Shown piece by piece: positions 43,490 to 45,849 of a DNA stretch of 64,000 nt (within the stretch, counting starts at the first letter, position 1; the number at the start of each line of letters is the position of its first letter). The translations under genes and the position numbers were made by a program. The stretch covers positions 4,464,001 through 4,528,000 of the forward strand of contig NZ_JAANOU010000001.1 in assembly GCF_011758765.1 (NCBI RefSeq), read 5' to 3'. Source of the stretch: Amycolatopsis viridis (GTDB taxonomy: Bacteria; Actinomycetota; Actinomycetes; Mycobacteriales; Pseudonocardiaceae). The notes beneath the pieces were generated by a model, which worked only from the letters and a program-made list of their open reading frames with translations, was not told the DNA's origin and did no database searches.

Positions 43490-44140
43490 ATGACCGTTCT
43501 CTCGCCGACTCCGCGCAGCACGCTGACCCGGAAGAAGGATCGGGCAGCCACCGATCGCGAGCGCCTGTACGAGGTGCTCGACGAGGGACTCATCTGCCAC
43601 CTCGGGCTCGTGCTCGACGGCTCCCCCGTCGTGCTGCCGACCGGGTACGGCCGCGACGGCGACACGCTGTACTTCCACGGTTCGACCGGCTCCGGGAACG
43701 TGCGGGCCGCGGCGGTCGGCATCGACGTGTGCGTCAGCATCACGCTCCTCGACGGCCTCGTCTACGCGCGCTCGCTCAACAACCACTCGATGAACTACCG
43801 CAGCGCGGTGGTGCACGGCAGGGCGCGCGCGGTGACCGGCGAGGAGAAGGTGCACGGGTTGCGAGCGGTGACCGAACACCTGACGCCGGGCTCGTGGGAC
43901 CACGCGCGCGCGGTGAACGCGAAGGAACTCGCGTCGGTGGCGGTGCTGGCGCTGGACCTCACGGAGGCCTCGGTGAAGATCCGCGCGGGCGAGCCGGTCG
44001 ACGACCCGGAAGACATGGACAGCCACCAGATCTGGGCCGGCGTGGTTCCGGTCCGGACCACCTTCGGCGAGCCGGTCCCGGCCGGGTACACGCCCGCCGG
44101 GGCGCCGGTTCCGCCGCACGTGCGGTCCCGCCGCCGGTAG
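43490..44140 (+). CDS. Pyridoxamine 5'-phosphate oxidase-family flavoprotein (NimA/PPOX-like)
   Basis: 216 residues with the split-barrel fold: GLICHLGLVLDGSPVVLPTGYGRDGDTLYFHGS (in parts, about 33-65), SITLLDGLVYARSLNNHSMNYRSAVVHG (in parts). It resembles nitroimidazole-reductase-like FMN or haem-binding proteins and not true PdxH. Divergent transcription from a PLP-binding regulator hints at a vitamin B6 or flavin link, unproven. I chose ATG 43490 on fold grounds; GGCAGG is 10 nt upstream. Confidence 0.78.
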   Translation: MTVLSPTPRSTLTRKKDRAATDRERLYEVLDEGLICHLGLVLDGSPVVLPTGYGRDGDTLYFHGSTGSGNVRAAAVGIDVCVSITLLDGLVYARSLNNHSMNYRSAVVHGRARAVTGEEKVHGLRAVTEHLTPGSWDHARAVNAKELASVAVLALDLTEASVKIRAGEPVDDPEDMDSHQIWAGVVPVRTTFGEPVPAGYTPAGAPVPPHVRSRRR

Positions 44141-44177
44141 CCGTCCACCGGGTACCTCCGGTGGGACCCCGCAGGGG

Positions 44178-44642
44178 TCAGTCGCGGACCGGACCGTCGA
44201 TCGGGTCCAGGTGGTAGGGCCGCATGACCCGCCCGCCGGTGCGGTAGACGTGCACGCTGATCGCCGGGTCCGGGCCGTCGTTGCGCACCTGGTGCACGTA
44301 GCCGGGCCCGAACACGCGGGACTGCCCGGCCGACAGCCGGTGCACCTCGGTGACCCCGCGCCGCGCGACGGTCTCGGACAACCGGCCGGTGACGACGGTG
44401 AACGCACCCGTCGAACCGCCGTGGTCGTGCAGGTCGGTCTGCTGGCCGGGCAGCCAGCCCATCAGCCAGATCTCTTCGTCGTCGCGCGCCTCGACGAGCG
44501 CGGAGAACCGCTTGTCCGGGTCGTAGCGCAGCAGCCGGCGCCAGCGGTCGCGGTCGGCGGCGAATTCGAGCGCGACCCGCACCGGGTGGCGCAGGACGGG
44601 CTTCTCGGCCAGGGCAACGGTGTTGTCCGGAACGGCGAACAT
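44178..44642 (-). CDS. Cysteine dioxygenase type I family protein
   Basis: 154 residues, smaller than mammalian enzymes but bacterial in size. Cupin fold with the iron-binding H-x-H in TDLHDHGGSTGAF (about 70-82) and the third His in GPGYVHQVRND (about 112-122). It oxidises cysteine to cysteine sulfinate with O2, an exit route for excess cysteine. AGAGGA lies about 12 nt before the ATG. A cysteine-rich leader peptide is encoded 50 nt upstream, and part of its Cys-codon region is complementary to this ribosome site. Confidence 0.85.
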   Translation of the reverse strand: MFAVPDNTVALAEKPVLRHPVRVALEFAADRDRWRRLLRYDPDKRFSALVEARDDEEIWLMGWLPGQQTDLHDHGGSTGAFTVVTGRLSETVARRGVTEVHRLSAGQSRVFGPGYVHQVRNDGPDPAISVHVYRTGGRVMRPYHLDPIDGPVRD

Positions 44643-44692
44643 GAAAAAGGTGTCCTCTGGGAAAAGGTGGTTGTCGGACTGGCTGGGCTGGG

Positions 44693-44767
44693 TCAGCGAC
44701 AACAACAAGGACACAGCGCGGCGCCACGGCGGAGCTCCCGCCGGGTCATCAGGCCACGCGTCGTCAT
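44693..44767 (-). CDS. Cysteine-rich leader peptide (uORF) of the cysteine dioxygenase gene
   Basis: A 24-codon frame from ATG 44767 ends L-C-P-C-C-C-R then stop. All four Cys codons are TGT, the rare codon in this genome, and they cluster in the last seven codons. On the mRNA, GUGUCCUU in that region can pair with GAGGACAC, the ribosome site region of the dioxygenase gene. Polycysteine leader peptides upstream of sulfur genes are established in mycobacteria, and many are leaderless. Here a possible promoter TTGACG-N17-TTGGGT ends 7 nt before the ATG. Start choice (44767 or 44749) is uncertain. Confidence 0.7.
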   Translation of the reverse strand: MTTRGLMTRRELRRGAALCPCCCR

Positions 44768-44769
44768 GG

Positions 44770-44799
44770 CGCCCACCCAACCAGCGGGCCGGGTGGGCG
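44770..44799 (-). terminator. Hairpin between gpsA and the Cys leader
   Basis: CGCCCACCC and GGGTGGGCG form a perfect 9-bp stem (44770-44778 with 44791-44799) around a 12-nt loop, 19 nt past the gpsA stop. It likely ends gpsA transcription. Confidence 0.5.
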
Positions 44800-44817
44800 T
44801 CAACCTCGTTCCACTTG

Positions 44818-45849
44818 CTAGGACCACTCGTGTTTCTGACGGCGGCCGAGCAGCTCGGCGCCGACCCGGCGCGGGTCCGCACCCTCGTGGCACACGCGGT
44901 GCATCGCGTCCGTGATCGGCATGTCGACACCGTGCTTGCGGGCCAGTTCCCGGATCGAGGTGCACGACATCACGCCCTCGGCGACCTGACCGCCGGTGGC
45001 CCGCTGCGCCTGTTCCAGCGTCTCGCCCCGGCCGAGCCGTTCGCCGAAGGTGCGGTTGCGCGACAACGGCGACGAACAGGTCGCCACCAGGTCGCCGACA
45101 CCGGCGAGCCCGGCGAACGTCAGCGGATCGGCCCCCAGTTTCGTGCCCAGCCGGGCCATCTCCGCCAGCCCGCGGGTGATGAGGGTGGCTGTCGTGTTGG
45201 CACCCAGTCCCATGCCGACGGCCATGCCGCAGCTCAGCGCGATGACGTTCTTGGCGGCGCCGCCGACCTCGCAGCCCACCACGTCGGTGTTGGTGTAGGG
45301 CCGGAAGTAGGAGTTGAAGCTCGCCTGCTGGATCGCCACCGCGCGGTCGTGGTCACTGCACGCGAGCACGGCCGCCGCCGGCTGCCCCTGCGCGATCTCG
45401 CGCGCCAGGTTCGGCCCGGACACCACGACGATCTCGTCCCCGGACACCACGACGATCTCGTCCCCGGACACCGCGGTGATCTCCGCGATCACCTCGCTCA
45501 TCCGCTTCAGGGTGCCGAGTTCGACGCCCTTGGCGAGGCTGACCAGGATCGCGCCGCGCGGCAACAGCTCCCGCCAGCCCGACAGGTTCCTGCGCAGGCT
45601 CTGGCTCGGCACGGCCAGCACGACCGCCTCCGCGCCGGCCAGCGCCTCGGCCGGATCGGGTGTCGCGGTGAGACTGCCGGGCAACGTGATGTCCGGCAGG
45701 TAGCCGCTGTTGGTGTGCTTGTCGCGGATCTCCCCGGCGACCTCGGCGCGCCGGGCCCACATGGTCACGTCCCGGCCGGCGTCGGCGAGCACCTTCGCGA
45801 ACGCGGTGCCCCAGGACCCCGCACCGAGCACGGTGATGCGCTGCACCAT
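44818..45849 (-). CDS. gpsA: Glycerol-3-phosphate dehydrogenase [NAD(P)+]
   Basis: 343 residues. Dinucleotide motif GAGSWGTAF (about 9-17), GPNLAREIA and the catalytic Lys in GGAAKNVIA (about 205-213) identify GpsA. It makes sn-glycerol 3-phosphate for phospholipids. An exact 24-bp tandem duplication gives V-S-G-D-E-I-V-V twice, just before GPNLAREIA, so the enzyme has eight more residues in the loop entering the substrate-binding strand. Two nt after the plsC stop, so it is an operon with plsC. Confidence 0.94.
45421..45468 (-). repeat. Exact 24-bp tandem duplication inside gpsA
   Basis: Two identical units, 45421-45444 and 45445-45468, in frame with gpsA. Confidence 0.9.

Follow-up and report, generated by a model that had tools for sequence, protein, structure and literature searches.

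A probable cysteine-responsive attenuator upstream of a thiol dioxygenase gene in Amycolatopsis and its relatives

An enzyme that degrades cysteine is expected to be ON when cysteine is plentiful. What, then, is a run of cysteine codons doing at the end of a short upstream open reading frame (uORF) just before a gene of the cysteine dioxygenase type, in an arrangement in which a ribosome stalled on scarce cysteine would seem to open that gene? The question was raised by a sequence-only reading of the window, by which we mean the whole stretch of 64,000 nucleotides that was analyzed. The source genome has 5.68 Mb in one contig, and among the named genomes of the single collection that was scanned its nearest relatives belong to Amycolatopsis; the dioxygenase of A. 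tucumanensis, for example, is 92% identical. The answer that we favor, and consider fairly probable on the strength of sequence comparison, modeling and analogy, is that the region is a cysteine-responsive attenuator that would be ON when charged tRNA-Cys is scarce, much like the polycysteine uORFs of mycobacteria.

The leader and its gene lie on the minus strand. The uORF has 24 codons (44767–44693) and encodes the peptide MTTRGLMTRRELRRGAALCPCCCR, whose tail, CPCCCR, is followed directly by the stop. All four of its Cys codons (4/4) are TGT, and a gap of 50 nt separates its stop from the start codon of the dioxygenase, an ATG at 44642; all of this agrees with the earlier description. The gene, for a thiol (cysteine-type) dioxygenase of 154 amino acids, occupies 44178–44642 with the stop included, and its orthologues have an ATG at the position aligned with 44642. 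The end of the uORF takes part in two helices. In H2, the strand GUGUCCUU (44714–44707), which overlaps the codons of Cys19 and Pro20, matches GAGGACAC (44657–44650), the Shine–Dalgarno (SD) strand of the dioxygenase gene, over 8 bp; the pairing that had been proposed for this ribosome site is thus present. In H1, GUUGUCG (44703–44697), made up of the codons of Cys22, Cys23 and Arg24, is the exact complement of CGACAAC (44676–44670) over 7 bp, and between this 3′ arm and the SD lies a pyrimidine-rich tract (44659–44669) that is U-rich in the Amycolatopsis clades. Both helices are present in the minimum free energy folds of the free leader RNA, and the folds as a whole are unremarkable against chance (z = −0.86 and −1.59 for two folds). 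Upstream, a −35-like hexamer, TTGACG (44803–44798), stands 36 nt before the uORF ATG and is followed after 17 nt by the −10-like TTGGGT (44780–44775), again as had been noted; the latter is a weak match, and many relatives have a GTTNNNT-like element in its place while others do not. A scan with the sigma-70 consensus gave no promoter in the window leader, Rfam gave 0 matches at E up to 1 in positions 44100–45000, and the leader peptide matched none of the NCBIfam and Pfam models (0 hits in NCBIfam at E up to 10). Elsewhere in the window, the gpsA gene contains two identical 24-nt units in tandem (45416–45463) with a partial third reaching to 45472, in frame, so that GDEIVVVS is encoded twice.

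The relatives of this locus come from a scan of genome contigs, of which the best 80 of 94 loci were used, and from additional searches of unnamed relatives. After two loci lacking upstream sequence (L015 and L100) were dropped and 16 sets of duplicates merged, there were 105 distinct upstream regions, all from Pseudonocardiaceae. In 96 of the 105, an appropriately spaced short ORF has at least two Cys among its last nine codons, and in 74 of the 105 it has at least three. The two-Cys test is passed by 1.1% of 1653 control windows drawn at random from these loci and by 3.7% of 2100 shuffled sequences. The nine regions that failed it comprise eight with a single Cys, in leaders of the ASALC type, and L130 with none. 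The alignment of relatives that the sequence-only reading had called for therefore does reveal conserved Cys codons. The 104 leaders range in length from 8 residues (MFALCPCR) to 36, and the number of Cys in them from 1 to 6. The choice of codon is marked: TGT accounts for 292 of the 330 Cys codons in the last nine uORF codons. In the portions covered of 25 sir (sulfite reductase) ORFs from relatives its share is 9 of 136, and in five other ORFs within the window it is 3 of 17, in keeping with the remark that a codon rare in the genome is used in the uORF.

The spacing of the promoter-like element is conserved as well. In 88 of the 105 regions an exact TTGAC is placed 35–37 nt ahead of a start codon that is in frame, and in 10 TTGCC is. 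Seven of eight permuted control 5-mers give counts of 0–1; the eighth, CTTGA, which would overlap TTGAC by a shift of one base, gives 27. This spacing puts the uORF start at about the start of transcription, and therefore the uORF is probably leaderless, as had been suspected from the window.

The pairing of the Cys codons with the ribosome site had to be judged with some care. Contiguous helices of 6 bp over the SD arise by chance at a frequency of 0.30–0.58 when the uORF ends are shuffled, and are observed in 59 of 104 loci overall, 6 of 33 in clade II and 6 of 15 in clade IV; because this count is too permissive, swap and rank tests were used instead. For these and all other clade analyses L130, in which no Cys uORF was found, was omitted, leaving 104 loci. 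The clade labels were assigned from the tails of the leaders and later compared with the protein tree; L075 and L119 are in clade IV by their leaders, though in the tree the former groups with Lentzea and the latter with Amycolatopsis rows. When uORF ends and SDs were swapped between clades, the mean cognate duplex was better than the swapped ones, in both directions, in seven of eight clades, namely I, I2, III, IV, V, VI (one locus) and VII. Among the 71 loci outside clade II, the cognate SD is better than at least half of the SDs of foreign clades in 63, and better than at least three quarters of them in 49. In clade IV the cognate energy equals that of shuffled SDs (−14.8 for both). In the clade of the window, all nine loci (9/9) have an SD helix of 8–12 bp.

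There are also instances in which both strands differ together. These include GUGUCCUUG/CAAGGACAC as against GUGUCCUCG/CGAGGACAC, GUCCUUCGUG/CACGAAGGAC as against GUCCUUCGCG/CGCGAAGGAU, and GUCCUU/AAGGAC as against UCUCUG/CAGAGA and UCUUUCUCGG/CCGAGAAGGA; CCUUGUUGUCG/CGACAACAAGG is a further pair with both strands changed. In a table of 53 loci, made without clades II and III, the core SD positions are 77–92% paired with several types of pairs, figures that lean towards a helix because the table was fitted to one. In some Lentzea the anti-SD strand has moved to codons 2–3 of the uORF (AUGUCCUUC). As judged by these sequence comparisons, the helix between Cys codons and SD is retained while both of its strands change, with the exception of clade II.

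That exception is a sizeable one. In clade II, an Amycolatopsis group of 33 of the 104 loci, the SD duplex is no better than shuffled (−10.3 vs. −10.9), and the Cys codons pair with the spacer instead, with GUGUCG/CGACAC in 28 of the 33. In two more loci of this clade, L021 and L024, both strands of the hairpin differ and read UCGUGUG/CACACGA. The compensatory changes that the sequence-only reading had proposed to look for in the SD pairing are thus seen in relatives outside clade II, where both strands change; these 33 Amycolatopsis loci lack the SD pairing, and 30 of them have the other hairpin, so that SD pairing cannot be called universal. In the protein tree the clade II members fall together inside Amycolatopsis with L035, at a three-way fork in which L035 and L042 make up one branch (support 94/91, with the bootstrap not settled). 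L035 retains both GUGUCCUUG and UGAGGACAC, and therefore the SD pairing was probably present earlier and was lost, at least once, within this group.

Beyond Pseudonocardiaceae, a Cys-rich short ORF together with a TTGACA-like box (at least 4 of 6 matching) precedes 19 of 68 further homologues, nearly all of them from other actinobacterial families; on the opposite strand, the control count is 1 of 68. Several families have no Cys leader in the few loci seen (for example, 0 of 16 in f15). The richest case is family f33, Streptomyces-like by our judgement of gene content, where a Cys leader and a perfect TTGACA (6/6) are found in 14 of 14 loci. Here the Cys run can pair with the first codons of the gene, AUGAACAGCGACAGCG, over 9–14 contiguous bp in 13 of the 14; the remaining locus, L205, has 7 pairs with its first codons. 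Only nine of the 14 f33 duplexes have energies that stand out from those of shuffled sequences by z −1.5 or better, and because the genomes are related, we count them as one lineage and not as 13 independent cases. Thiol dioxygenases of other actinobacterial families (L150, L151, L162, L168, L172 and L176) are preceded by a leader of the FWxSRRGxxFDECC type. Amycolatopsis palatopharyngis has the dioxygenase twice (L070 and L071), in opposite orientation and some 36 kb apart on a single contig, and the 200 nt upstream of the two copies are identical. Second paralogues in Amycolatopsis have a Cys leader in 0 of 11 loci. One of the paralogues is the second thiol dioxygenase of the source genome (L251, G000:C1:1466940–1467260), which has no Cys leader that we could see and is followed by a rhodanese-like gene, recognized by eye. 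In L136 and L194, from other families, a gene recognized in the same way as rhodanese-like adjoins the dioxygenase; among the gene neighbors of 18 loci viewed by eye, those of 10 Pseudonocardiaceae loci have no link to sulfur.

How such a leader could act is best described with the help of a folding model in which the footprint of a stalled ribosome is masked. Over the 71 loci outside clade II, masking raises the probability that the SD is unpaired from 0.16 to 0.35; the gain exceeds 0.05 in 53 of them, and there is a drop in 8. In clade II there is no consistent change of the SD on stalling (8 of 33 rise and 8 fall). For the window's own sequence the gain is small, from 0.17 to 0.25, and opening the SD becomes no cheaper (7.3 kcal/mol before and 8.0 after). 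When sir leaders (21 of 25 loci) were put through the model as a control, the SD did not change (0.33 to 0.34), and therefore the control lends the model no validation; a different step may be the regulated one in sir. Given the modeled geometry, a ribosome waiting for Cys-tRNA would thus open the dioxygenase gene, and the worry about the sign that accompanied the original reading stands.

The proposed sequence of events is as follows. The leaderless mRNA would begin at the uORF ATG. With plentiful charged tRNA-Cys, ribosomes translating the uORF would pass its Cys codons and depart, and the RNA of these codons would then pair with the dioxygenase ribosome site and keep translation low; in Amycolatopsis, the hairpin and the U-rich tract behind it may add a premature termination of transcription. 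With scarce charged tRNA-Cys, a ribosome would wait on the Cys codons and mask that strand, and the ribosome site would open. Of this, the comparison of relatives shows the uORF, its Cys run, the spacing of the promoter and the compensated pairing; that the uORF is translated, that ribosomes stall on it, the sign of the response, the part played by termination and the substrate of the enzyme are things we infer. No conserved competing structure of the kind that could invert this logic was found across the folded loci. At first, an inverted logic looked possible for Lentzea, with a spacer helix set against the SD helix; those Lentzea rows whose SD reads AAGGAC have it paired, in the free fold, with a GUCCUU in codons 2–3 of the uORF. 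It was ruled against by the mean SD accessibility of clade III, which rises on stalling from 0.14 to 0.36. In some Lentzea rows (L063), the SD re-pairs with a spacer GUCCU after stalling, and a second regulatory layer may exist there.

There are other ways in which a leader of this kind might work. Should H1 and its U-rich tract form a terminator once the ribosomes clear the uORF, regulation would be by transcription attenuation and the SD pairing would be secondary. The spacer hairpin of clade II fits this well, being kept in 28 of 33 loci and in two more with both strands altered, and so does the U content after the 3′ arm of the hairpin, which is 0.44 in clade I, 0.34 in I2 and 0.48 in II against a background of 0.15; from these sequence features, termination is a possible component in Amycolatopsis. 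However, the U content is lower in clades IV (0.14), V (0.25), VII (0.29) and VI (0.08, one locus), the 0.38 of clade III belongs to an arm that runs into the SD, and most clades retain the SD pairing. A terminator scan of the window did not report H1, which the scan's loop limit of 8 excludes. As the main mode of control, termination seems to us unlikely. The uORF could also be a constitutive leader that senses nothing, a loading site or an element of RNA stability, with Cys codons that serve for pairing only. It is true that TGT codons can pair with ACA or GACA and that the pairing is conserved. But the Cys run persists where its partner differs, be it the SD, the first codons or the spacer, and the sir leader of the same genome, with its SALC-type end, passes an NCBIfam leader model, so that we would give such a passive role very little credence.

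The one alternative that would give the sign expected of a catabolic enzyme is a TnaC-like arrest peptide, in which high cysteine stalls the ribosome at the end of the uORF and the gene opens at excess. Judging by the geometry, the anti-SD strand would be covered as well by a ribosome that has halted at the stop, and some lineages do have a common peptide core like GHIDLRLVASALC. Arrest peptides, however, usually need specific residues in the tunnel, and the leaders, which differ in length and in number of Cys (MFALCPCR and MSFNACCCCTWR are examples), have, by eye, no residue beyond Cys that is common to all. With so much variation in the peptide apart from its Cys run, and with leaders as short as 8 residues, this logic, which the sequence-only reading had suggested in the form of a release-dependent step, is disfavored; we regard it as quite improbable.

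If low cysteine does switch the gene ON, the identity of the enzyme deserves a second look. Its assignment to the family is clear enough: the fragment from 44621 scores 57.1 bits against PF05995 (CDO_I; cut-off 23), and the protein has H72, H74, H117, S129, H131 and Y133, that is, three histidines and a Ser-His-Tyr motif. These are the three iron-binding His and the motif whose roles are known for the CDO_I family and are described in part in PMC10966181. In cysteine dioxygenase, Arg60 interacts with the bound cysteine (excerpt of PMC8050391). The window protein has R45-F-S-A-L49 in this part of the sequence, and the Pseudonocardiaceae rows read R-F-(S/A)-x-L; Tyr47 is found in 0 and Arg49 in 1 of the 28 Pseudonocardiaceae rows, as compared with 22 and 25 of the 32 other rows, though an Arg or Lys does occur at this place in some members when more sequences are counted. 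Aligned to the human-type enzyme, either Ser47 or Leu49 falls at the place of Arg60, depending on the register, which is uncertain. The closest solved chains are 8qfl–8qfr, named cysteine dioxygenase in the PDB; 8qfl we take to be an ergothioneine dioxygenase. The target named at the outset, a cysteine dioxygenase, is thus right as to the CDO_I family with its His and Ser-His-Tyr motifs and uncertain as to cysteine: no residue of the window protein clearly corresponds to Arg60, and it may therefore act on a different thiol. W-Y-H-R is kept, however, in the three f33 rows that were aligned, so that for f33 the paradox of the sign remains.

The predicted sign, ON at low cysteine, is odd for cysteine catabolism. 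A tentative way to make sense of it, which we consider less likely than not, is that an attenuator running in the apparently wrong direction is used in several actinobacterial families: the enzyme would set sulfite free from a thiol other than cysteine, stored or foreign, as the Arg that cannot be recognized in the Pseudonocardiaceae enzymes and the nearest solved protein, 8qfl, suggest, sulfite reductase would make cysteine of it again, and the sensor would be kept while its partner, be it the SD, the first codons or the spacer hairpin, was exchanged between lineages. Should the gene indeed be ON at low cysteine, the so-called cysteine dioxygenases of these organisms may serve sulfur recovery, not cysteine disposal. 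The scarcity of Cys in the enzyme itself (2 Cys in 16534 aa) was considered as a sign of expression at low cysteine and not used, because other members are low too (1 in 1790 aa for the second paralogues and 28 in 10204 for other families).

A leader of related appearance is found elsewhere in the same genome. The leader of the sulfite reductase (sir) operon, MTYAGVLLVVRRHVDFRRVASALCRETN (L274 12010–12096; G000:C1 about 4192509–4192595), has one Cys, and its core is similar to that of the HIDLxxVASALC leaders found before some of the dioxygenase genes. In the sir leaders of L275–L291, the codons for Asp-Leu/Phe-Arg (CUCCGG or CUUCCGG), about 7–9 before the Cys, match the SD (CCGGAGG or CCGGAAGG), and the two seem to change together. 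This geometry differs from that of the dioxygenase leaders, and the duplex energies are mostly no better than shuffled. Pattern searches of the genome for Cys leaders gave 85 and 31 matches. The requirement of a short ORF ending in Cys and preceded by a −35-like box was applied to only part of these, and therefore other leaders of this genome may have been missed. One that passed the Cys-leader filter is a short ORF, MRLCSCPCRVDR, near 898708 (L261, G000:C1), with a weak −35-like box.

It is worth comparing the dioxygenase leaders with systems that are already known. TnaC is a leader peptide of the tna operon that also precedes a catabolic gene for the amino acid sensed; here, no conserved arrest peptide is seen and the predicted sign is the opposite. 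Among models of leader peptides, NF042934 (a cis_reg_atten entry named ‘putative leader peptide’, cut-off 27) comes close to the present leaders: of the ten tested, an f16 dioxygenase leader (29.2 bits) and the sir leader of the source genome (30.8) pass it, and two HIDL-type dioxygenase leaders of Pseudonocardiaceae score 25.4 and 16.8. The window leader differs from this model and also from NF042936 (Ms4527A) and NF042933 (Ms5788A), with 0 hits at E up to 10. In 2005, leaders in which, as here, several Cys codons in a row come shortly before the stop were predicted ahead of actinobacterial cys operons and cbs; no conserved terminator hairpin was found for them (PMC1262725), whereas here the SD pairing is backed by changes in both strands. 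No leader-peptide attenuator or uORF for cysteine dioxygenase was found in the literature excerpts consulted, which did not cover the target list of Canestrari et al., and the word ‘dioxygenase’ is absent from the main text of two papers on polycysteine leaders that were searched for it.

The closest likeness is with the polycysteine uORFs shown in Mycobacterium smegmatis (Canestrari et al. 2020, as cited in excerpts of PMC9094748 and PMC9031893), where, according to an excerpt of PMC13236596 that also cites that work, a stalled ribosome opens the cysteine genes. As far as these excerpts go, in both systems a gene linked to sulfur is preceded by a short ORF (leaderless there, probably leaderless here) that contains Cys codons and whose RNA can occlude the downstream SD; the probably leaderless Cys uORF and the SD pairing found here make good the likeness to mycobacteria that had been drawn from the window. 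The differences are that the target here is a thiol dioxygenase, that the window leader is unmatched by the NCBIfam models of the mycobacterial leaders, and that the pairing partner varies by lineage. The fairly probable attenuator described above would thus extend control by cysteine codons from the cysteine genes of mycobacteria to the thiol dioxygenase genes of several families of actinobacteria. Its sensor, the Cys codons, keeps its place, whereas the RNA masked by it is not the same in every lineage.
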